Source: a virus
DNA length: 30,232 nucleotides
Reading direction: 5' to 3' (one strand)
Virus record (IMG/VR): IMGVR_UViG_3300042691_003868
Location: 1 to 30,232 of that record
The translations under genes were made by a program, and so were the position numbers. The notes under the pieces are model-generated. The model did no database searches. It had not been told where the DNA came from and worked only from the letters and a program-made list of their open reading frames with translations. Positions 3 through 30,232 of the stretch are shown piece after piece (position 1 is the first letter of the stretch; the number at the start of each line of letters is the position of its first letter).

Positions 3-2132
3 AGCACATCCCAAGATATTACTGCTTACGCCGATACCGGAAATGGGTTCCGTGTATACACAAACGGCAACAACGAACGTATGCGCATCGATAGCAGCGG
101 CAACGTCGGGATTGGTACGGCTACACCTGATGTATTTGGTCGTTTTTACACTCGTTCGGTGGGCATCAATTCTTCCGGCACGTCGATGCTGCAAATCAAC
201 GGCACGACCTATGGTGGTATTGATTTAGGCTTTAACGGCACTCGCACGGCAACTATGCTTGCAGAAACGGGTGGCCTCTTTATCCAGACAGTCACTGCTG
301 CGGCCATGTCTCTGGGCACAAACGGCTTAGAACGCATGCGGATTGACACCAGCGGCAACGTCGGGATTGGTACGAGTTCGCCGGGGGATAAGCTAACAGT
401 TAGCGGCACTAATACTGGTGTAGGTATTTCAGGGGGTACTGGCTCAGCTGGTTCTCCTGCCTACACAAACCTTAATTTCCGTGGGTTTTCTAGTAATCGC
501 ACAGCGGTAATTCGCTCCTTTGACCAGAGCGGAAGTTTTGCAGCAAGCGGTGGGCTTGAGTTTCTTGTAAACCAAAATATGCTTGCTGACACGCTAACCT
601 CCGTGATGCGTATCACTGCTGACCTCAACGTCGGGATTGGTACGAGTGCGCCGGTCACAAGGTTGCATGTATCTCAAAGCAACTCAGGTGATTACGCTTC
701 AGTTGCCTTGCTCTCAAACAGCGCAGACGCAGCGGCAGACCGCACTGGTATCTACGGCTCGCCCGCTCCGGGCACCGCAAACCCATATCGCGGCGGCATT
801 ACTTTCTGGCCCGGTTCCTCTGGGGCTGTCTCGATACACACTGGGAATAACGCCACCCCCGGTGCCGGTGAGCGCGTTCGCATCGACGGTACGAACGGCA
901 ACGTCGGGATTGGTACGACCACCCCTGCTGAAAAGCTAAGTGTCGCGGGAGCCATTCGTGTACACACCAATTCTAGCGCAGGGTTTACGCTTGATACAAA
1001 GGGTGGCTTGTTTGACTTTGTTCCAGCAAGCAACAACGTCCGACTTGGGTATGTCCCCGGCACATCAGGGGTGAATACAGGTATCTTGACTTTTGTAGTT
1101 GGCAGCGGCTCAGAAGCCATGCGCATAACCAGCGCGGGCAACGTCGGGATTGGTACGACTGCTCCAGCAACGAAGCTGCAAATCCAAGAAACTACGGGGA
1201 CATCAGGATTTGAGAGTGGGTTATCGTTGACAAACGCTGTTGACAGCAACTTATTCCTACAGATAACTGGTTCGGCTAGCGCCGACAAACGGGCGCTTAT
1301 CTCCACCAGCACAGTAACACCTATTGCGTTTGCCACTAACTCTGTAGAACGTATGCGCATCGACGCCAGCGGTAACGTCGGGATTAATTCTACCCCTAGT
1401 GCTTGGAGTTCTGGGTATAGGGCGCTTCAGATTGCCGGTCAGGGCGCTGGGTTATTTGCTAACACTACAGTTTCTCAGGCCATTCTTGGGTCAAACGGCT
1501 ACTATAACGGAACCAACTGGATATATAATAACAGCGACACCGCCGGTCAGTATTGGGTTGACGGAAACGTCCATAAGTGGTTCAACGCCGCTGGTGGGTC
1601 ATCCGGGTCTACCATCAGCTTCACAGAACGTATGCGCATCGACAGCAGCGGCAACTTGCTGGTGGGGACGACGGCTGCGTTATCTAACCCGACCACCGGC
1701 ATTACCTTCTTACCTGCGTCCGGCGCGTCGAACGCCGGAATTGGCCATGTAACTGGAACTGCGTCTGGTACAGGCTACCTGTATTTTGCGTTTAATGGCG
1801 GCAACATCGGCTCCATCACGCAAGACGGCACAACGGGAGTTCTTTACAACACATCCTCTGACGTTCGCCTAAAAGATAACATCACTGACGCGGATGACGC
1901 CGCCAGCCTGATTGACGCGCTTCAAGTACGGAAGTTTGATTGGAAGGCTGACGGCACGCATCAACGCTACGGCTTCGTGGCGCAAGAACTTGTCACCGTT
2001 GCACCAGAGGCAGTCAGTCAACCAGCAGACCCAGACGATATGATGGGTGTGGACTACTCGAAACTGGTCCCGATGCTGGTCAAGGAAATTCAATCGCTCC
2101 GCGCCCGCGTGGCACAACTAGAAGGAAACTAA
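3..2132 (+). CDS. Tail fibre with S74 self-cleaving chaperone domain (5' partial)
   Basis: The frame is open from base 3, so the N-terminus lies outside the window. The ATG at 81 sits inside a repeat module and is unlikely to be the start. The visible 709 residues contain seven modules of the type (E)RMRIDSSGNVGIGTxxP, spaced 78-93 residues apart and joined by Gly/Ser/Thr-rich beta-type sequence. The C-terminus is a Peptidase_S74 intramolecular chaperone. It has a Ser-Asp-Val-Arg-Leu-Lys motif with Ser at 1857-1859 and Lys at 1872-1874, the five-residue spacing of the known Ser/Lys dyad, followed by DNI, the FVAQEL motif and a terminal coiled coil (LVPMLVKEIQSLRARVAQLE). In this family the chaperone drives trimer folding and then cuts itself off, here predicted at 1859/1860, releasing about 90 residues. 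The role is host-receptor adhesion at the tail. The family assignment is firm; the receptor is unknown. Confidence 0.93.
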   Translation, partial: STSQDITAYADTGNGFRVYTNGNNERMRIDSSGNVGIGTATPDVFGRFYTRSVGINSSGTSMLQINGTTYGGIDLGFNGTRTATMLAETGGLFIQTVTAAAMSLGTNGLERMRIDTSGNVGIGTSSPGDKLTVSGTNTGVGISGGTGSAGSPAYTNLNFRGFSSNRTAVIRSFDQSGSFAASGGLEFLVNQNMLADTLTSVMRITADLNVGIGTSAPVTRLHVSQSNSGDYASVALLSNSADAAADRTGIYGSPAPGTANPYRGGITFWPGSSGAVSIHTGNNATPGAGERVRIDGTNGNVGIGTTTPAEKLSVAGAIRVHTNSSAGFTLDTKGGLFDFVPASNNVRLGYVPGTSGVNTGILTFVVGSGSEAMRITSAGNVGIGTTAPATKLQIQETTGTSGFESGLSLTNAVDSNLFLQITGSASADKRALISTSTVTPIAFATNSVERMRIDASGNVGINSTPSAWSSGYRALQIAGQGAGLFANTTVSQAILGSNGYYNGTNWIYNNSDTAGQYWVDGNVHKWFNAAGGSSGSTISFTERMRIDSSGNLLVGTTAALSNPTTGITFLPASGASNAGIGHVTGTASGTGYLYFAFNGGNIGSITQDGTTGVLYNTSSDVRLKDNITDADDAASLIDALQVRKFDWKADGTHQRYGFVAQELVTVAPEAVSQPADPDDMMGVDYSKLVPMLVKEIQSLRARVAQLEGN
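81..1675 (+). repeat. In-frame tail-fibre repeat modules with a conserved 19-bp core
   Basis: The 19-base string caacgtcgggattggtacg occurs at 101-119, 356-374, 626-644, 899-917 and 1139-1157, with a degraded copy at 1373 and a more diverged one at about 1652. All spacings (255, 270, 273, 240, 234 and 279) are multiples of three. The repeat encodes N-V-G-I-G-T inside each MRID..GNVGIGT module. Nucleotide identity is tighter than the protein motif requires, which suggests recent duplication or gene conversion. Confidence 0.9.
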
Positions 2133-2626: not shown

Positions 2627-4558
2627 GTGTCCTTCATCAAGCTTCAGTTTAAGCCGGGTGTTAACCGGGACCAGACCGACTATTCTAACGAAGGCGGCTG
2701 GAGGGAGTGTGATAAAATACGCTTCCGTTCCGGTTACCCCGAGAAGCTTGGCGGCTGGCTAAAATCCGCGCCTGACCCATTCATCGGCTATTGCAGGCAG
2801 ATGCTAAACTGGGTTACTTCTTACTCTGATGATATGCTTGCGATGGGCACGGACGTAAAAGTCTACATCGAAATCGCAGGTAACTACTACGACATAACCC
2901 CGCTGCGCGCTATTGACCCGGTGCTAGACTCACCGGACACAGACAACTGCATAAACACCACTAACGGCCAAGCTAAGGTCACAGTGAACTTAGGCGCAGT
3001 TGCCCATGGCGCGCAGACGGGGGATTATGTAACTATTTCTGGGGTTACGGGTTCCGGCTCACCATCCAATATCGGTGGTATTCCAATCACTGAGATTAAC
3101 GGCAATTACCCAATTACCGTCGTAGACCCATTTATATTCACCTACACTGTTAGCACAAGTGCGACATCTACCGTAACCGGCTCGGGTGGTACAGCCATCG
3201 ACCTTGCGTTCGAACTTAGCCCCGGTTTTCCTATCAGCGTATTTGGTTATGGCTGGGGTACAGGCACTTGGGGTCGTGGTACATGGGGCACTGGCTCTGC
3301 GTATCCGATAGCGCTGCAACAGCGCGACTGGTGGTTTGATAACTTCGACAACGACCTTGTAATGAACTTCCGCAACGGCGAGGGTTACTGGTGGACGCGT
3401 GGACTTACAGACGACCCGACAAACGCGCTAAATACTCGTGCTATTAGTTTATCAGCTTACGCTACTACGCAAGGGTTCACAGCTGCGTCGGTCCCTGTTA
3501 AAATTATGCAGTTGCTGGTATCACAGCAAGACAGGCACTTGATTGCATTTGGCGCGGTGCCTTTCGGTTCGGTAGACCCTGATGATTTTGACCCCATGCT
3601 TATACGCTGGGCTGACCAAGACACGCCGGGTGACTGGACGCCTTCACAGACTAATTCTGCAGGCGACATACGTGTTTCTCGCGGCTCACGTATCATACGC
3701 GCTCTGCCTACACGGCAGGAAATCATAGTCTGGACAGACAGCCACCTGTACACACTGCAGTTTCTTGGCACGACCGACGTATTCGGGCTGCAGGAGTATG
3801 CGGATAATATCTCCATTATGTCGCCACGGTCGATGGCTACGGCGGCTAACACCACATACTGGATGGGGCAGGACAAGTTCTATGCCTATACCGGTCGCGT
3901 CGAGACGCTGCCTTGCACCTTGCGTAACCACGTATTCAATGACTTCAATCTTCAGCAAGCCGACCAAGTTATATGTGGTACTAACGAGCAGTGGAACGAA
4001 GTCTGGTGGTTCTACCCCACCGCAGATAGCGACTATAACAACGCCTATGTGGTCTACAACCACCTCGAACGTATCTGGTATTATGGCTATATACCCCGCA
4101 CAGCGTGGCTCGACACTTCTATACGCTACTACCCGCAAGCTGCGAACACGACGGGCGGTGCAACCAGTGGCTACTTATACTCCCACGAACTTGGGGTAAA
4201 TGACGACGAGTTGCCTATGGACAGCTACATCCAGTCGTCTGACTTTGACCTCGATGACGGCGACAACTTCATGCTCACTAGGCGTATGATACCCGACATA
4301 AGCTTTGACGGCTCGACTGCTGAAGCTCCAGAAGTGACGCTGACTGTTCGGCCACGCAACTTCCCCGGTAGTGCGTTCCGTGTGGACCCTGCGGATAGCC
4401 AGCGTGTTATTGAGACTTCAGTCGGTGCTTATACAGACCAAGTGTTTGTCCGTGCCCGTGCACGTCAGATGGCGCTAAAAGTTTCTTCCGGTGAGCTTGG
4501 GGTACAGTGGCAGTTAGGTGCACCGCGCCTAGACGCACGACCTGACGGACGCCGCTAA
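2627..4558 (+). CDS. Virion hub-like beta-structure protein, 643 aa
   Basis: The start is GTG, immediately after the preceding stop. The N-terminus (FKPGVNRDQTDYSNEGGWRE, then KIRFRSGYPEKLGGW) is a hallmark of a large structural protein found near tail genes in many podovirus-like phages. Residues about 108-190 form an inserted beta domain (VAHGAQTGDYVTISGV, then ITVVDPFIFTYTV) resembling the FCCH-like domain often detected in phage structural proteins. The remainder is rich in Trp, Gly and Tyr strands, consistent with a beta-propeller or tail-hub fold. It may correspond functionally to a P22 gp10-like stabilisation protein or a T7-like tubular protein; I cannot decide between these. The stop overlaps the next start as TAATG (4556-4560). 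Confidence 0.75.
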   Translation: MSFIKLQFKPGVNRDQTDYSNEGGWRECDKIRFRSGYPEKLGGWLKSAPDPFIGYCRQMLNWVTSYSDDMLAMGTDVKVYIEIAGNYYDITPLRAIDPVLDSPDTDNCINTTNGQAKVTVNLGAVAHGAQTGDYVTISGVTGSGSPSNIGGIPITEINGNYPITVVDPFIFTYTVSTSATSTVTGSGGTAIDLAFELSPGFPISVFGYGWGTGTWGRGTWGTGSAYPIALQQRDWWFDNFDNDLVMNFRNGEGYWWTRGLTDDPTNALNTRAISLSAYATTQGFTAASVPVKIMQLLVSQQDRHLIAFGAVPFGSVDPDDFDPMLIRWADQDTPGDWTPSQTNSAGDIRVSRGSRIIRALPTRQEIIVWTDSHLYTLQFLGTTDVFGLQEYADNISIMSPRSMATAANTTYWMGQDKFYAYTGRVETLPCTLRNHVFNDFNLQQADQVICGTNEQWNEVWWFYPTADSDYNNAYVVYNHLERIWYYGYIPRTAWLDTSIRYYPQAANTTGGATSGYLYSHELGVNDDELPMDSYIQSSDFDLDDGDNFMLTRRMIPDISFDGSTAEAPEVTLTVRPRNFPGSAFRVDPADSQRVIETSVGAYTDQVFVRARARQMALKVSSGELGVQWQLGAPRLDARPDGRR

Positions 4559-5510: not shown

Positions 5511-8381
5511 ATGACGGACACGCGCACCATGCCACCGATTATTAACTCAGCGTCGAATGCTTCAGTAACAGGGTCTGCTCCCCAGCTTGGTGCTATGGTT
5601 CCCGGCACTACTGGCGGTATGCCTGCGGTTGGTGGTCTGTCCGTAACTCAGAACCCTATGGCTAAGCAGCTACAGAGCTACGGTCGTGGCGACGACAAGA
5701 TGCTCGTGCATATGACCCCCGGTGAAGTCAACGGGCTGCAGCAGCTAGCTATGGCGCATGGCGGCTCTCTTACAATCAACCCACATACTGGTCTGCCCGA
5801 AGCTGGCTGGCTCGGTAAACTTCTTCCAACACTTATCGGCTTCGGTCTTGCTGCTACTGGTGTCGGTGCCCCACTCGCTGCTGGTATGGTAGCCGCAGGA
5901 CAGACTGCACTTACTGGAGACTTGAGCAAAGGTCTTATGGCTGGCCTCGGTGCCTTCGGTGGTGCTGGTCTTGCTGGCGCTGTTGGTGCTGGCGGCTCTA
6001 TTCTTGGCGGTAATGCCGCTGGCTTGTTGGGTGATAGTGCCGGAATGTTCGGGGCCAATATGGGTGCCGGTACTGTTGCACCTACCCTTACCAGTGCCGC
6101 AGGCGCAGTGAGCAGCCCAGCCTTAGCTGTCACTAATGGTGCTATTGGGTCGGGTACTAATATCGCTGGCCTAGCGTCGAATGCTGCTACTACCGCTGGC
6201 ACCACTGCTCCAGCTGCTGGTGGTTTGCTCTCCAAGTTCGGGCAAAGTGTAACTCAGGGGCTACCTGCTGGCACTCCCGGCATGATAACTAAAGCTGCGC
6301 CTATGCTGGCTGGTACAGGATTGCTTAGCTCTGTGTCAGGCGCGATGCAGCCGAAGATGCCCACTTACAACGAAGAGGACGAATATAAGTCCAACTATAA
6401 TGGCCCGTATGTGCCCGGTAAGCGTGAGCTGTCTTTCCAATCTCCAGCGCAGATGCAGGCTTCTGGCGGCGCGGAGCATAAGTACTTTACTCCATCTAAC
6501 CCACCGCCTCGTTCAGTAAATGAGCTAACCCCCGAAGAGCGGGCCCAGTATGGGTTTGCCGAGGGCGGTCTTGCATCACTGCCAGCATCCAATGATTTTC
6601 AGTCTATGGTGAACTATTTTAGTGCAAATAGTCCCGGTGCTATAACTGCGTCGATGCGGCCTGATTACGCTGGCCTTCCCCCTTCCGGGGCCGGGGAGAT
6701 AATGAGCTTTAACCGCCCTTCCACAAATCTAATCCCTAACCCTAACCCAATAGCGGGTGGCGGTGGTGGCGGTAACGCTACTGGTGGTTTCGGGGGGTAC
6801 GATGAAGCTTTCCTCACCGGCCTATACGACCGGTTTGGGCGTATGGAAGACAGCATAATTAACCCTGACTACAGTGCGCTTGATGACCGGTTTGGACGGC
6901 TTGAAAGCCGCTTTGGTGAGCAGTTGGGGCAGATAGACTCAGGTATTGACGACCGGTTTAACCAGTACGACTCCCGGTTCAATATCATGCAGGACTCTAT
7001 AACTCCGGCGCTTACCGGTATCAACGACCGGTTTGGGCAGCTTGAGAACAACTTTGCTAGCCAGTTCAACCAGCTGGACTCGGGGCTAAACAACCGGCTT
7101 GGGCAGGTTGAGACTAACTTCGCTGACCAGTTTAACAATATAGACTCTGGCCTCAATAACCGGTTTGGGCAGCTTGAGAACAACTTTGCTAGCCAGTTCA
7201 ACCAGCTGGACTCGGGGCTAAACAACCGGCTTGGGCAGGTTGAGACTAACTTTGCCGACCAGTTCAACCAAATAGACTCCGGTCTAAATGACCGGTTTAA
7301 CCAGATAGACTCACGGTTTAATACGCTGCCCACTACTGACTTGAGTGGGGTCTACGACCGGTTTGGGCAGCTGGAAAATAGGTTTGGTGAGCAGATAGGG
7401 CAGCTAGACTCTGAACTCGACAACCAGCTGGGGCAGATAAATTCGCGCTTCGACAGCATCCCGTCCACCGACTTGAGCGGTGTTTACTCACAGCTGGGCA
7501 ATTTGGACTCACGTCTAAGCAACATGCCAGCCACTGACTTGAGTGGGGTGTACGACCAGTTGGGGCAGATAAACTCACGTTTTGAAAGTATCCCATCCAC
7601 TGACCTTAGTGGGGTTTACGACCAGTTGGGAAGCCTAGACTCACGTCTGAGCAACATGCCTGCACCTGCAGCTACGGACCTAAGCGGTGTCTACGACCGT
7701 CTTGGACAAATCGACTCGCGCTTCAACAGCCTGCCCACACCTGCAGCTACCGACTTGAGCGGAGTTTACGACCGTCTTGGGCAAATCGACTCACGCTTCA
7801 ATAGCCTGCCTTCACCCGCAGCTACGGACCTGAGTGGGGTCTACGACCGGTTGGGGCAGATTGACTCGCGCTTCGATGCTATACCTACACCTGCATCCAC
7901 CGACCTAAGTGGGGTATACGCCCAGTTACAGCAGCTGCAGGACCAGCTTGCTGCGTCCCGGCAGGCACCTACTGACGTACCTAGTGGCATGCAGTCGTAT
8001 GATAACTTCGGTGAATTTGCCCGTGGCGGTGAAGTAGACATGCGTAACGGCTCTTTTGTCGTAGACGCACGTACCGTATCGGAACTCGGTAATGGCAGCA
8101 GTAATGCAGGTATGGAGCTTCTGGCCCGCATGGGCGGACGCCCACTGCAAGGACCCGGTGACGGAGTAAGCGACTCGATACGCGCACGTATCGGTGGCAA
8201 GCAGGAAGCACGTGTCGCCCGCGACGAAGTACTGTTCACACCAGAAGCAGTTAAACGCATAGGCGGTGGTAGCGATAAGCGCGGCACTGCCAAACTATAC
8301 TCCCTGATGGATAAGGCCCATAAAGCACGCAAGAAAGCGAAGCGCGGCGAAGACACTAAAGTTCGGAAAGGTCTAGCATGA
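5511..8381 (+). CDS. Large internal-virion or ejection-type protein with coiled-coil repeats, 956 aa
   Basis: A weak AGGA ribosome-binding site precedes the ATG. Residues about 60-90 hold a motif familiar from uncultured phage virion genes (MLVHMTPGEVNGLQQLAMAH). Residues about 100-245 are a hydrophobic Gly/Ala-rich stretch, suited to membrane insertion. A Gly run (GGGGGGN) leads into residues about 433-800. These consist of 22-residue units of the type DRFGQLENNFASQFNQLDSG, then eight TDLSGVY units of 22-25 residues, predicted to form long helical or coiled-coil rods. The C-terminus is basic (HKARKKAKRGEDTKVRKG), which could contact DNA. Short FAEGGLASL and FARGGEVDM motifs flank the repeats. 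It heads the presumed ejection module and ends in an ATGA overlap with the GNAT-like gene. A tape-measure role is a less likely alternative. Confidence 0.72.
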   Translation: MTDTRTMPPIINSASNASVTGSAPQLGAMVPGTTGGMPAVGGLSVTQNPMAKQLQSYGRGDDKMLVHMTPGEVNGLQQLAMAHGGSLTINPHTGLPEAGWLGKLLPTLIGFGLAATGVGAPLAAGMVAAGQTALTGDLSKGLMAGLGAFGGAGLAGAVGAGGSILGGNAAGLLGDSAGMFGANMGAGTVAPTLTSAAGAVSSPALAVTNGAIGSGTNIAGLASNAATTAGTTAPAAGGLLSKFGQSVTQGLPAGTPGMITKAAPMLAGTGLLSSVSGAMQPKMPTYNEEDEYKSNYNGPYVPGKRELSFQSPAQMQASGGAEHKYFTPSNPPPRSVNELTPEERAQYGFAEGGLASLPASNDFQSMVNYFSANSPGAITASMRPDYAGLPPSGAGEIMSFNRPSTNLIPNPNPIAGGGGGGNATGGFGGYDEAFLTGLYDRFGRMEDSIINPDYSALDDRFGRLESRFGEQLGQIDSGIDDRFNQYDSRFNIMQDSITPALTGINDRFGQLENNFASQFNQLDSGLNNRLGQVETNFADQFNNIDSGLNNRFGQLENNFASQFNQLDSGLNNRLGQVETNFADQFNQIDSGLNDRFNQIDSRFNTLPTTDLSGVYDRFGQLENRFGEQIGQLDSELDNQLGQINSRFDSIPSTDLSGVYSQLGNLDSRLSNMPATDLSGVYDQLGQINSRFESIPSTDLSGVYDQLGSLDSRLSNMPAPAATDLSGVYDRLGQIDSRFNSLPTPAATDLSGVYDRLGQIDSRFNSLPSPAATDLSGVYDRLGQIDSRFDAIPTPASTDLSGVYAQLQQLQDQLAASRQAPTDVPSGMQSYDNFGEFARGGEVDMRNGSFVVDARTVSELGNGSSNAGMELLARMGGRPLQGPGDGVSDSIRARIGGKQEARVARDEVLFTPEAVKRIGGGSDKRGTAKLYSLMDKAHKARKKAKRGEDTKVRKGLA
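7027..7252 (+). repeat. Perfect 94-bp direct repeat pair, 132-bp period
   Basis: Bases 7027-7120 and 7159-7252 read as identical over 94 bases (both begin accggtttgggcag and end gactaactt). The offset of 132 bases equals 44 codons, i.e. two 22-residue coiled-coil units, so the duplication keeps frame. Related but diverged copies lie on both sides. The perfect identity implies recent duplication or ongoing conversion inside the 956-aa virion gene. Confidence 0.9.
7335..7919 (+). repeat. Eight tandem TDLSGVY repeats
   Basis: The heptapeptide TDLSGVY occurs eight times between 7335 and 7919, usually followed by (D)xLGQIDSRF and a Pro-containing linker. Early units are 22 residues long. The later four carry a PAA or PAS insertion, giving 25 residues. 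The first interval is longer because extra coiled-coil units are inserted. The units resemble a rigid helical rod with proline hinges. Confidence 0.9.
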
Positions 8382-8812: not shown

Positions 8813-10819
8813 ATGGCTGGCGGTTCTAGCGCACCCACGAAACAAGAAGTAACTACTACTTCGAGCAACCTGCCCGAATACGCACGTCCGTATTTTGAAA
8901 GCCTCATGCAAGGCGCGCAAGGCGCGCTCAACACGCAGTATACACCGTATAGCCAGCAGCGCATCGCAGGCTACACTCCGGCCCAAGAGCAAATTCAGCA
9001 GAATGTGCTAAACATGGGTGCACCGAACCAGTACGGTACTGGCTCAGCACTTGCTTACCAAGCAGGGCTTGGTGCACTGCAGCAGAACTATAACCCGTCG
9101 CAGTTTAATGCGCAGCAGGTCAGTGGCCCACAGCTTCAGCAGTACCAGATGGGTCCTGCTATGGGAGTAGCTGCTCAGCAGCAAAACGCGCCTATGATGG
9201 GCACTGCCCAGACCGGGTATAATCCGAACCTAAATGCGTTTCAAATGGGTGGAACACGTGACGTAGGCGCGCAGCAGGTTAGCTCTTCCGACATGCAGGG
9301 AGCGCAGACGGGGTACAACCCGAGCCTAAATGCGTTCCAGTTTGGACCTACTCAGCAGGTATCAGCGCAGCAGGTTAGCGCGCCTACTATGCAGGGTGCT
9401 CAGACTTCTTTTGGCCAAGGCCCACTTGAACAGTTGCGTATGTCTGCTCCAGAGCAGTTCGGGCAGGCGCAAGCCGACCAGTATATGTCTCCCTATGTGC
9501 AAAGCGTAGTAGACACACAGAAGCGCGAAGCCATTACAGACGCGAAGAAGAGCCAGCTTGCCCAAGACCTTGGCGCTGCGCGTCAGGGCACCTATGGCGG
9601 TAGCCGTCAGCTACTTGCCGGTCTAGAGCGTGAGCGTAATCTGGGTACGCAGCTAGGTGATATCCAAGCACGTGGTTCGCAAGCGGCGTTTGAGAATGCG
9701 CAAGCTCAGTTTGAGCGTGACCGCGCAGCAGGCATGACCGCAGGTCAGACTAACTTGCAAGCAGCATTGGGTCAGCAGGAGTTGGGTCTCCAGACTGGCA
9801 TGCAGGCGGCTCTGGCTAACTTGTCGAACGAGCAGCAGGCACGGGTCAACAACCAAGCAACGCAGTTCCAAGCACAGGGGATGAATGCTGATAGCGCGCT
9901 GCGCGCCGCACTTGCTAACCAAGGCGTAGATGTAACGCGGGCACAACAGAACCTACAGTCGCAGTTGGGTACTCAAGAGCTTGGCGCTAACATCGGTCTG
10001 CAGACGGCGATGCAGAACCTGTCGAACGAGCAGCAGGCGCGGGTCAATAACCAAGCGCAGCAGTTCCAAGCACAGGGGATGAACGCGGACAGCGCACTAC
10101 GTGCTGCGCTTGCTAACCAAGGCGTAGACGTTACCCGTGCGCAGTCAAACCTGCAGTCACAACTAGGTACTCAGGAGCTTGGTGCTAATATCGGCATGCA
10201 GACTTCGTTGGCTAACTTGTCGGCAGCACAGCAGGCGAACGTGCAGAACCAAGCTGCTCAGTTGCAGACACAGGGGCTAAATGCTGAACAAGCGATGCGC
10301 GCAGCGCTGGCTAACCAGCAGGCTGGGTTGCAGGTAGGCTCACAGAACCTCGAAGCGCTGATGAATACGCAGCAGCTTGGCTCACAGAACTACATGCAGG
10401 CTATGCTCGCTAACCAGCAGCAAGGGCTTGAAGCGCAGCGTCTCGCAGAACAGTCGCGCCAGTTTGGTGCCTCTCAAGGTCTTGCCGGGTTACAGGCAGC
10501 AGGGCAGATGGGTCAGACCCTTGGCAACCTCGGTCAGTATCAGCAGCAGTCGGACCTCCAGCGTCTGCAAGCCCAAGCGGCGGCAGCGAGTGAGCAACGC
10601 GGTCTACAGCAGCAATACCTCGACCAAGCTTACGCAGACTTCCTGCGTCAGCGCGACTACCCAATGGAGACGCTGGGCCAGTACAGCAACTTGCTTCGCG
10701 GCATACCTGTAGGCTTGAACTCGACCCAGACATCATACGCACCGCCACCATCTATGGCTTCTCAAGTGCTCGGTACTGGTCTAGGTGCATTGGGTCTATC
10801 TAGGACGCTCGGCGGTTAA
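8813..10819 (+). CDS. Gln/Ala-rich repeat internal virion protein, 668 aa
   Basis: The N-terminus (PEYARPYFESLMQGAQGAL, then YTPYSQQRIAGYTPAQEQIQ) is a conserved start of an internal or tail protein in many uncultured podovirus-like phages. Residues about 100-200 repeat short units ending YNPxLNAFQxG and AQQVS. Residues about 220-300 (YMSPYVQSVVDTQKREAITD, then GAARQGTYGGSRQ) form a conserved helical core. From about residue 310 on there are 66-residue amphipathic repeats very rich in Gln, Ala and Asn. A good GGAG ribosome-binding site lies 6 bases before the ATG. By composition and position it is a candidate for the T7 gp14-like trans-envelope channel component. That comparison is an inference; no sequence identity to gp14 is claimed. 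Confidence 0.7.
   Translation: MAGGSSAPTKQEVTTTSSNLPEYARPYFESLMQGAQGALNTQYTPYSQQRIAGYTPAQEQIQQNVLNMGAPNQYGTGSALAYQAGLGALQQNYNPSQFNAQQVSGPQLQQYQMGPAMGVAAQQQNAPMMGTAQTGYNPNLNAFQMGGTRDVGAQQVSSSDMQGAQTGYNPSLNAFQFGPTQQVSAQQVSAPTMQGAQTSFGQGPLEQLRMSAPEQFGQAQADQYMSPYVQSVVDTQKREAITDAKKSQLAQDLGAARQGTYGGSRQLLAGLERERNLGTQLGDIQARGSQAAFENAQAQFERDRAAGMTAGQTNLQAALGQQELGLQTGMQAALANLSNEQQARVNNQATQFQAQGMNADSALRAALANQGVDVTRAQQNLQSQLGTQELGANIGLQTAMQNLSNEQQARVNNQAQQFQAQGMNADSALRAALANQGVDVTRAQSNLQSQLGTQELGANIGMQTSLANLSAAQQANVQNQAAQLQTQGLNAEQAMRAALANQQAGLQVGSQNLEALMNTQQLGSQNYMQAMLANQQQGLEAQRLAEQSRQFGASQGLAGLQAAGQMGQTLGNLGQYQQQSDLQRLQAQAAAASEQRGLQQQYLDQAYADFLRQRDYPMETLGQYSNLLRGIPVGLNSTQTSYAPPPSMASQVLGTGLGALGLSRTLGG
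9823..10350 (+). repeat. 198-bp (66-codon) tandem repeats in the Gln/Ala-rich gene
   Basis: Copies begin at 9823, 10021 and 10219, exactly 198 bases apart. Each begins at the gtcg of NLS(N/A)(E/A)QQ and contains QAxQxQxQGxNAxxAxRAALANQ. The first two are close to identical and the third is diverged and incomplete. The 66-residue unit can be read as three amphipathic 22-residue segments. Confidence 0.88.
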
Positions 10820-23723: not shown

Positions 23724-24125
23724 TCACTTGGTTGTTGGTTTGCGAACCGAAAGCACATACTTAGTATCTGCATTGAGGCCGACAGGTAGACTATCGGGGT
23801 TCTCCTCTAGGTAATTACGCATGTTGCCATTGTGGATGCGCTGTTCGAGAAGATGCATCACATCATTCTCCTTAAGAAACTTGTACATGGACTCCCAATC
23901 GCTCGTCCAGTAGCGGGTAGCAGCGCGCCTAGTTATCGTACCTTCTTTGGTACGTAGGCTGTCCACGTTCTGTGTGTTGCAGACCTCAAGTAGCTTGGCG
24001 CTAACTAGGTCCATCTGCCCCTTAAGCTCTGTAATCTCGGCTTTGTGGGCGTCTTCCTTAGCCTGCACGACATCACGTATCTTGCGATAGACGCGCACAA
24101 GCTGGTCTACGGGTAAATCATCCAT
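23724..24125 (-). CDS. Gam/gp157-like phage protein, 133 aa
   Basis: An N-terminal helix (DQLVRVYRKIRDVVQAKEDA) leads into a coiled coil (HKAEITELKGQMDLVSAKLL), followed by a compact domain with SLRTKEGTITRRAATRYWTS and YKFLKENDVMHLLEQR. It ends PVGLNADTKYVLSVRKP. This order (coiled coil, then a short domain in which an early strand-turn pair is followed by a helix and a 'P.G....Y.VSVRK' end) is found in a widespread family of phage early proteins near SSB and helicase genes. That family is sometimes compared with Gam or gp157, which bind DNA ends or affect host nucleases. Activity here is unproven. A strong GAAGGAGCAAG site precedes the ATG. Confidence 0.6.
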   Translation of the reverse strand: MDDLPVDQLVRVYRKIRDVVQAKEDAHKAEITELKGQMDLVSAKLLEVCNTQNVDSLRTKEGTITRRAATRYWTSDWESMYKFLKENDVMHLLEQRIHNGNMRNYLEENPDSLPVGLNADTKYVLSVRKPTTK

Positions 24126-28711: not shown

Positions 28712-29143
28712 CTATTCTCCTCTGTTAATTGATATTACACCACCTAACTGCGTACTTGGCGTTACATTACCAACCCCGACGTTGCCGATGCTGTCGATGC
28801 GCAGTATGGCGTTCTGAATATTCTGCTGCATCGCTTGCTGCTGCGTGTGCTGCAATGCGGCTGCAAGATGCCGCTCATACTCATTCTCTTTCTCTTCCTG
28901 CGCACGGCGCTCGTCGCCGTTAAGCAACTCCTCCATTATTTGCTCGTGAACTTCAGCCATGCGGATATCACGTACCTTTGCATCAAGTGCAGCTATGTCA
29001 GCCTCATTTCCGTAAGAGTTTATAGCGCTCATGTGGTTATACCATCGGTCATGGTACGACGGGTCTTTAAGCCTAAACTCCTCTGGATGACTCTCCATCC
29101 GTGCAAGTAGCAGCTTGACTGCGTCGTGCGGTTCATCCGCCAT
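28712..29143 (-). CDS. Conserved phage protein with a tail-fibre-like C-terminus, 143 aa
   Basis: The N-terminal two thirds are helical and charged (DAVKLLLARMESHPEEFRLK, DRWYNHMSAINSYGNEADIA, VHEQIMEELLNGDERR), a type I have seen next to phage polymerase genes without known function. After a Gln-rich stretch (QHTQQQAMQQNIQNA), residues about 112-136 read ILRIDSIGNVGVGNVTPSTQ, almost the module sequence of the tail fibre at the left end of the window. The gene overlaps the polymerase end by 11 bases and has GGAGCAAG before its ATG. Either the C-terminus was captured from a fibre gene, or the domain has an independent origin. Function is unknown. Confidence 0.72.
   Translation of the reverse strand: MADEPHDAVKLLLARMESHPEEFRLKDPSYHDRWYNHMSAINSYGNEADIAALDAKVRDIRMAEVHEQIMEELLNGDERRAQEEKENEYERHLAAALQHTQQQAMQQNIQNAILRIDSIGNVGVGNVTPSTQLGGVISINRGE
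28769..28804 (-). repeat. Inverted copy of the tail-fibre repeat
   Basis: Read on the - strand, these 36 bases match 81-116 of the fibre at 32 of 36 positions by my alignment, including an unbroken 14-base run ggcaacgtcgggtt/ggcaacgtcgggat differing only near its end. Both copies are in the coding frame and encode (M/L)RIDSxGNVG(I/V)G. The two copies are in opposite orientation and about 28.7 kb apart. Confidence 0.85.
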
Positions 29144-30232
29144 AACTTGCTCCTATCTTGCTCTCACAGTTCAACGGTAACGCTGCGGCCCACTTAGGTC
29201 GCATGCGCATGCAGACTTCAACAAACGCACGGGCTTTGTCAGCTTCTTCTATGGGGGCAATCACCCCCACGGCGTCGTGCACGGTCATCACCACACGGTA
29301 GCGTCGTGCAATCATCAGCATCTGCTCACCGATAATGATACGGGCCAAGGCTTGGCACACGTTCTCAATCAGCTTCCCGCCGTATATGTACGTAGGTAGC
29401 GTAGCCCGACCCTTCTTGACGTCGTAGACGAACTGGTCCCGGCCCGACTTCTTGTCTGGCTCCTTGCGTAAGTTATCGTACCGCAGGTACATACCGTTGG
29501 GTAACCTGATACCGAACATATCTACTAGCAGTGCTTCGTGCTCACCCAGTTGTGCGGTCCTAGTGGACATAAGCGCCTCTAACGCCTTATCCCCTTGCTC
29601 CCACAGTAGCGGTATCTGGCTAAACTGGTCCCTGTACTTGTACACAATATGCGCGCAGGTTTTTGAGTCCAACTCTACACCGAATGTCTTAAGCTGCGCT
29701 TGGAACTTACTACTTCCCATGCCGTAGCCACAACCAAGGATGGTGGTCTTACCCACGAACCGCTGGTCATCCGTCACGTCATCAATAGGCACTTCGTAGA
29801 TAGACGACGCCATAATCTTATAGACGTCCTCACCTTTGTCGAAGGCATCCACCAAGTCGTTCTGTCCAGCTAGCCACGCCAAGGTCCGCGCTTCGATTTG
29901 CGACGAGTCACAGTCGATAAACACATAGCCTTCTGGTGCCCGCATAGACTTCTTGAGCGGTGACTTGCGCGGTAGGTTCTGGAGGTTGACCTTGTCGTCG
30001 CCACCCCACCGGCCTGTATGTGCTGCGTAGTAGCGTAGTGGAACTGGTAGTAGTCCCCGGTCAGCAATAGCTACGAACCGCTCGGTCCGCGTCTCCTCAA
30101 GTGTAGACTTCACGCCCAGCCGCGCAGCGACGATGGCTTGCACTTGTGGATTGGGGTGGTCGAGCAGTGCCTTGAACAGTTCATCACTCTTGGCGAAGGC
30201 GAATGCTGCCTTACCTGTCTTGGCGCTCACCT
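29133..30232 (-). CDS. Family A DNA polymerase, palm/fingers region (5' partial)
   Basis: The frame is open to the window edge, so the N-terminus (usually a 3'-5' exonuclease) is missing and the GTG at 30230 need not be the start. Visible motifs: TGRW...NLQNLPR before motif A, motif A D-S-S-Q-I-E-A-R (catalytic Asp at 29907-29909), motif B RFVGKTTILGCGYGM, and motif C V-H-D-A (Asp at 29274-29276). The residue equivalent to E. coli Phe762 is Leu (29736-29738). Motif C has Ala where His-Asp-Glu is usual. It replicates the phage genome, with the PrimPol-helicase and SSB on the same strand as probable partners. Identification is firm. Confidence 0.95.
   Translation of the reverse strand, partial: VSAKTGKAAFAFAKSDELFKALLDHPNPQVQAIVAARLGVKSTLEETRTERFVAIADRGLLPVPLRYYAAHTGRWGGDDKVNLQNLPRKSPLKKSMRAPEGYVFIDCDSSQIEARTLAWLAGQNDLVDAFDKGEDVYKIMASSIYEVPIDDVTDDQRFVGKTTILGCGYGMGSSKFQAQLKTFGVELDSKTCAHIVYKYRDQFSQIPLLWEQGDKALEALMSTRTAQLGEHEALLVDMFGIRLPNGMYLRYDNLRKEPDKKSGRDQFVYDVKKGRATLPTYIYGGKLIENVCQALARIIIGEQMLMIARRYRVVMTVHDAVGVIAPIEEADKARAFVEVCMRMRPKWAAALPLNCESKIGASYGG

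Follow-up and report, generated by a model that had tools for sequence, protein, structure and literature searches.

A polA-linked protein of uncultured tailed phages has an exchangeable tail that carries modules of tail-fibre type

Introduction

Exchange of tail fibres by recombination between phages or tailocins is described in several reports (e.g. the accessible parts of PMC13195805 and PMC10579305). Fibres may also depend on separate proteins that act on them in trans. The accessible part of one report describes T4 gp57A as a 79-residue chaperone required for gp12, gp34 and gp37 (PMC3004832), and that of another describes Pam3 gp25 as a separate chaperone, in which a non-conserved domain binds the fibre and a helical domain mediates trimerisation (PMC9608196). 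Fibre genes of the Peptidase_S74 type lie in the structural module beside virion genes, whereas the gene considered here lies beside the gene for DNA polymerase A (polA), on the opposite strand. We found no description of a polA-linked family with a fibre-module tail in the open PMC literature, as covered by titles and beginnings of abstracts of the best-ranked matches, a collection outside which most subscription papers lie.

Results

The window, i.e. the whole stretch of DNA that was analysed, is a 30,232-base fragment of an uncultured tailed phage (IMGVR_UViG_3300042691_003868, positions 1 to 30,232). Its + strand holds the structural genes, beginning with a cut tail fibre, followed by a DUF7936 gene and then by a stabilization-protein gene, so named here because its cultured relatives include proteins annotated as 'stabilization protein'. 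The replication genes occupy the − strand, starting with DNA polymerase A and proceeding to a primase/helicase-like gene. It is among them, adjoining polA and on the strand opposite to the fibre, that the gene for a 143-aa protein lies, exactly as an earlier note on this DNA had placed it; a 61-aa gene begins 2 bases after it. The features are as follows.

3..2132, + strand: tail fibre, cut at the window edge, with a Peptidase_S74 chaperone domain near the C-terminus (Pfam, PHROG)
81..116, + strand: fibre repeat nearest to the module; further repeats start from 336, 606, 879, 1119, 1353 and 1632
2136-2465, + strand: DUF7936 gene
2627-4558, + strand: stabilization-protein gene; its PHROG family is a virion structural protein
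28712..29143, − strand: 143-aa gene of the polA-linked family, with the RMESHPEEF signature (ORF, IMG/VR relatives)
28742..28804, − strand: fibre-like module LRIDSIGNVGVGNVTPSTQLG, residues 114-134 (sequence, DNA match, profile)
28769..28804, − strand: 36-base stretch, 32/36 identical to fibre repeat 81-116 (blastn and position-by-position match)
28787..29005, − strand: single long helix, predicted, residues 47-119 (AlphaFold2)
28916..29143, − strand: conserved N-terminal part, residues 1-76 (alignments; AlphaFold2 pLDDT about 87-97)
29133..30230, − strand: 3' part of DNA polymerase A; 11 bases are shared with the 143-aa gene (ORF, Pfam, PHROG)

The 143-aa protein contains LRIDSIGNVGVGNVTPSTQL, the end of which lies 10 residues before the C-terminus. 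The earlier note had read this fibre module as the very end of the protein; the module is present, but LRIDSIGNVGVGNVTPST is followed by 12 more residues, QLGGVISINRGE. The best cultured matches of other window proteins are to Pseudomonas phage Rollin (helicase, 40%) and DSL-LC04 (structural protein, 33.5%). The same replication operon also includes a gene (23724-24125, − strand) matching a PHROG called 'minor head protein' (E 1.1e-19) and, below the cut-off, a Pfam family described as Pam3 gp33-like. In the structural region, translations of 5511-8381 (+) and 8813-10819 (+) display, by eye, many imperfect tandem repeats of the DLSGVYDRLGQIDSRF and NLSNEQQARVNNQAQQFQAQGMNADSALRAALANQ types.

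The identity of 32 out of 36 bases between 28769-28804 (−) and 81-116 (+), claimed in the earlier note, was reproduced, and a blastn search of the 143-aa gene against its own record gave E = 1.8e-9 at 82-117. The same 36-mer matches the other fibre repeats at 30 (position 336), 28 (1632, 1353 and 1119), 24 (879) and 23 (606) bases. The seven top-scoring sites on the fibre's strand are all fibre repeats, and the background starts from 22, which is the score of the best site outside the fibre on that strand as well as of the best other site on the strand of the 143-aa gene. Nine of 12 residues are identical to the best repeat, 8 of these 9 with the same codon. The longest exact word common to the 143-aa gene and the fibre has 15 bases, or 20 in the sister phage G003; for the other replication genes, compared with the fibre on either strand as 34 overlapping pieces of up to 432 bases, exact words reach at most 12 bases.

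Similarity of this extent is not readily reproduced by codon choice. With synonymous codons for the 36-mer drawn from the window's own genes, at least 32 matches to any of six modules were obtained at a rate of 1e-5 (200,000 draws). Under a harsher null, which covered 60 bases and followed the codon usage of fibres, P was 0.0032 (window) and 0.002 (G003). It is the G003 fibre that both match best (44/60); the window's own fibre scored 40/60, where the null mean is 37.8. Across 18 stretches the same null revealed a clear excess only in the window and G003, with G025 (0.045) and G053 (0.049) being borderline; the remaining 14 have no excess, so that older capture and short-motif convergence are indistinguishable there. 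Accordingly, the view of the earlier note that the match goes beyond protein convergence stands for the window clade, where it exceeds the codon nulls, but does not extend to those 14 of 18 stretches.

The core 25-mer of the match, AGCRNCGGCAACGTCGGGRTTGGTA, was located in 53 stretches of IMG/VR (51 contigs). Four of these stretches are this gene in relatives of the window; the other 49 are fibre ORFs, most of which have several repeats or the C-terminus of a fibre. Among the 49 fibre stretches, 36 also hold a DUF7936 relative and 20 a stabilization-protein relative (13 of the 20 at 24-31% identity). Since carriers of the 25-mer differ in their other genes, the repeat has spread over distant phages. 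Given that 49 of the 53 stretches are fibre ORFs and that the codon nulls rarely reach the observed match, the module in the 143-aa gene probably derives from the fibre. The 25-base core is nearly fixed across the 49 fibre stretches (window 81-1667, loci L334-L386) and may be a joint at which fibre modules recombine.

The 143-aa protein is not confined to the window. Using it as a query in IMG/VR we obtained 80 loci, and with further members found by three relatives as queries the collection comprises 71 unique complete proteins; the signature filter (RM followed by E or K) overlooked two members, L005 and L014, which carry RMDSHPEEF. In alignments, the conserved N-terminal part is characterised by the RMESHPEEF signature and an invariant W34. 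Of the 80 loci, 75 include a polA relative encoded on the same strand; in the remaining 5 the locus ends no more than about 300 bases from the gene. The gene comes after polA in most loci and before it in several distant ones. The polA-linked family is that of a large, widespread group of uncultured tailed phages. In distant relatives, two or three tandem RMESHPEEF paralogues adjoin polA (L068 6957-7738, L074 1666-2459 and L071 3759-4411), and tandem paralogues are also found in contigs G018, G027, G028, G040, G043 and G045.

The window's 143-aa protein has no match in Pfam, and PHROG and PDB profile searches with the conserved part produced marginal matches only, the PDB search returning two chains, TATA-box-binding protein (E 0.006) and saglin (E 0.2). 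Tails of family members match two PHROG fibre families at about 1e-4. No cultured-phage relative of the conserved part was retrieved by three family queries with a limit of E 1; of two more family queries with a limit of E 10, one found nothing and the other a single match with E 5. A tail alone had one match among cultured phages (E 0.7), and a search of GTDB-species genomes for prophage relatives with one peptide pattern yielded none. For the window protein, AlphaFold2 predicts helices at residues 7-44 and a single helix at 47-119, with the fibre-like tail modelled at low confidence (pLDDT about 52). The prediction for L025, a longer relative, includes a 74-residue helix, two strands (147-150 and 153-158) in the fibre-like part and a C-terminal helix (172-182). 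A coiled coil was considered for the long helix and rejected, its hydrophobic periodicity being not significant in 8/8 members tested. Fold searches against PDB and BFVD gave 0 matches at E 0.001 or better.

The C-terminal tail is a hypervariable, exchangeable cassette on a conserved helical N-terminal part. The window gene (L001) shares with L005 92% of bases in residues 1-76 and 40% in the module region, and several replication proteins of L028 are 99% identical to those of the window, yet its tail is different. The reverse is seen for L025 and L253, with 76% of bases identical in residues 1-76 and 99% over the last 34 codons. L001 and L006 agree at 72% of bases in residues 1-76 and at 76% in the module, but at 96% in the last 9 codons, which amount to only 27 bases. 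Between the window and G003, the module of 21 codons differs by 0 synonymous and 3 non-synonymous changes. In L006 (5644-6042), four module codons (TCTAATAATTTA) are almost wholly unlike the codons of the window or fibre type, while the flanking codons match. Gene conversion was considered for this mosaic-looking gene and set aside: the segment, searched as GAYTCTAATAATTTAGTCGGG, is in no other IMG/VR contig, and the change may have gone in either direction.

How often tails carry fibre motifs was assessed with two profiles, M1, derived from 97 fibre repeats, and M2 (GTLPVANGGTGAT type), derived from 15, both taken from the IMG/VR fibre stretches minus the four holding this gene. The scored set consisted of 67 tails, i.e. 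the 71 unique proteins minus four with tails under 20 aa. At 6 bits or more, M1 is found in 11/67 tails, compared with 1/1872 control C-termini, 1/1340 shuffled tails and 0/335 other-frame readings; for M2 the corresponding numbers are 5/67, 1/1872, 0/1340 and 0/335. One tail has both motifs, 15/67 have either and 52/67 have neither at 6 bits. The tail of L001, a protein identical to that of the window, scores 22.1 bits with M1. The tails of L005 and L014, scored later, fall below 0 bits with both profiles, bringing the counts to 11 and 5 of 69. Control C-termini left out ORFs with at least two VGIGT-type motifs, ANGGTG or the family signature. In a set of 26,786 complete ORFs (60-260 aa), all distinct sequences reaching at least 12 bits (5 for M1 and 2 for M2) are family members; this set, like the control ORFs, includes overlapping loci, near-identical contigs and spurious frames.

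Several of the 15 module-bearing tails are closely related (L001, L003 and L006; L025, L253 and L037; L061 and L208). On a polA tree of 53 members, the 8 rows with M1 call for 7 or more changes, and the 12 rows with M1 or M2 for 10 or more. These counts are perhaps somewhat high because 17 of the 50 inner branches of this quick tree (the 53 of 71 members whose locus includes 300 aa or more of polA) are open. Judged by the profile scores, fibre-type modules of two kinds thus occupy the same position and reading frame in several lineages. As for a one-off capture as opposed to recurrence, the module is not always present in homologues of the 143-aa protein (15/67), but it does recur in family tails.

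Tails and fibres were also compared within genomes whose fibre region lies on the contig. For this comparison near-identical contigs were merged (G005 with G016 and G029; G047 with G048; the window with G001), and M1 fibres were called strong when their hits reached at least 25 bits. The five genomes with strong M1 fibres have 7 to 17 fibre-profile hits each outside this gene. M1 tails are present in 4/5 of them and in 0/14 genomes without strong M1 fibres (Fisher P 0.0013, in a post hoc test on related genomes). With the same two reservations, the counts are 4/5 versus 0/9 (P = 0.005) when distant members without long tails are left out, and 3/4 versus 0/9 (P = 0.014) when G003 is dropped too. 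Counting weak fibre hits as well gives 4/8 versus 0/11 (P 0.018) for hits of at least 8 bits in long structural-strand ORFs, and 4/10 versus 0/9 (P 0.054) for hits in any ORF. G026 has the fibre motif and lacks the tail motif. G053 is the one M2 tail with a fibre on its contig; that fibre is also M2, but M2 fibres are common. In G018 and G051, which have some 6 kb of sequence ahead of the stabilization-protein gene, the fibre region is possibly incomplete.

Copying of each tail from the fibre of the same phage was considered and rejected: when tails were compared with contig ORFs, the own genome was not the consistent best match among the matches listed, and we therefore do not claim a copy from the phage's own fibre beyond the window clade. 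The condition that the earlier note had set for its own refutation, namely homologues with the motif in unrelated codons and no fibre containing it, had a mixed outcome. In relatives with the motif, codons are no nearer to those of fibres than expected by chance, but a fibre with the same motif type accompanies the tail in 5/5 same-contig cases.

Discussion

The explanation that we consider probable, if by no means secure, is recurrent acquisition of fibre modules by an exchangeable tail of the polA-linked protein, with the modules kept in frame, possibly because the protein works with the fibre. In the window clade, the tail of the 143-aa gene contains DNA homologous to a tail-fibre repeat, which recombination would have brought in. 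The tail behaves as a fast-changing cassette swapped between diverged N-terminal parts, and other lineages have, at the protein level, fibre-type modules of two kinds at the same place and in the same frame. Because the reading frame is preserved, the modules appear to be kept for what they do as protein; such retention for function would most plausibly reflect use as an interaction or oligomerisation element working with the phage's fibre, which we take to be the partner of the module. Capture of a fibre fragment, one of the options in the earlier note, is well supported for the window clade by the DNA excess and by the 25-mer, otherwise seen only in IMG/VR fibre ORFs, whereas for the other lineages the case is made at the protein level only.

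Several other explanations have to be weighed against recurrent acquisition. The tail could be neutral debris, the 3' end of the gene being a recombination hot spot that catches the commonest repeat of the genome and plays no fibre-related role. The multi-copy nature of fibre repeats (the 7 to 17 profile hits in each of the five strong-M1-fibre genomes), the 52/67 tails with neither motif and the low-confidence tail prediction by AlphaFold2 all agree with this, and we regard it as possible, though on balance doubtful: two fibre motif types recur at the same place, no short ORF outside the family reaches 12 bits, and the module is found in 0/335 other-frame readings, even if old out-of-frame captures would be hard to see. 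Less plausible still, although compatible with capture, is a virion protein or mini-fibre encoded in the replication operon and packaged, in which a helical anchor and stalk would bear a short fibre module; a misplaced virion protein was also among the options of the earlier note. The architecture predicted for L025 (helices, one of them with 74 residues, then two strands within the fibre-like part and a C-terminal helix) would suit such a protein, as would the match of the operon gene 23724-24125 to the 'minor head protein' PHROG, but many family members lack a fibre module or a long tail and structural matches at E 0.001 or better are absent.

Convergence, by which tail and fibre would each have evolved VGIGTxxPS independently as a short module of a generic kind, finds some support in the stretches where the DNA excess over the codon null is absent (14 of 18) or borderline (2). 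It is already unlikely for the window clade, where the DNA match is above the null and where fibres are the only other carriers of the 25-mer, and the single hit among 1872 control C-termini at 6 bits speaks against it more generally; overall we consider it improbable. The least credible explanation is a donor cassette or phase switch, with inverted copies flipping about 28 kb or reshuffling the fibre, as the earlier note had also envisaged. A 36-base inverted repeat with 32 identical positions does exist, but its longest exact part is 15 bases (20 in G003). Moreover, the 143-aa gene and the stabilization-protein gene are on opposite strands, i.e. in one relative orientation, in 28/28 assembled contigs with both (24 identified by blast and 4 by profile, near-identical contigs included), and the window's fibre as a query has no match in the 80 loci around the gene. 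Gin/Cin-type recombinases and integrases (PF00239 and PF00589, each in 0/5 records) and reverse transcriptase of diversity-generating retroelements (PF00078, also 0/5) were not found in the five records, all of which are fragments. These observations argue strongly against the proposed inversion, and we see hardly any room for it.

Returning to recurrent acquisition of fibre modules, a bolder version would have the replication-operon protein form a fibre-mimic system, its tail occasionally rewritten from fibre repeats so as to track the fibre type. The protein would then assist in trans with folding, registering or protecting the fibre, or else block the receptor or fibre of competitors. We offer this as speculation that is rather unlikely to be correct in full. 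More modestly, the data hint at a link, unrecognised so far, between a replication-operon protein and host-recognition fibres. If the tail does track the fibre, it would be a partner of host-recognition fibres that can be read from sequence, and would help in studying how fibre repertoires are assembled or switched.

Among known systems, the closest in sequence are Peptidase_S74 tail fibres with RIDSSGNVGIGT repeats (PHROG 18345 and 9942; PF13884): the tail module is the same repeat, in the window clade at the DNA level. Unlike those fibres, the 143-aa protein has a single module and no S74 domain (Pfam), and its gene belongs to the polA operon, on the strand opposite to the fibre. In terms of function, the nearest analogues of the polA-linked protein may be trans-acting fibre chaperones such as T4 gp57A and Pam3 gp25, a comparison drawn by analogy. 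No chaperone family was matched in Pfam (searched with the window protein only) or in PHROGs. We know of no fibre module in T4 gp57A. As far as its accessible description goes, gp57A resembles the 143-aa protein in that both are small and neither is itself a fibre, and we propose a functional analogy only, claiming no membership. Likewise, in Pam3 gp25, as portrayed in the accessible part of its source, the variable part is an N-terminal beta-sandwich, whereas in the 143-aa family it is C-terminal and itself fibre-like; here, too, no membership is claimed. Finally, in fibre exchange as presented in the accessible parts of the reports cited above, segments move between fibres and the recipient is a fibre or a host-recognition module, whereas the recipient of fibre segments here would be a polA-linked protein, in several lineages and in frame.
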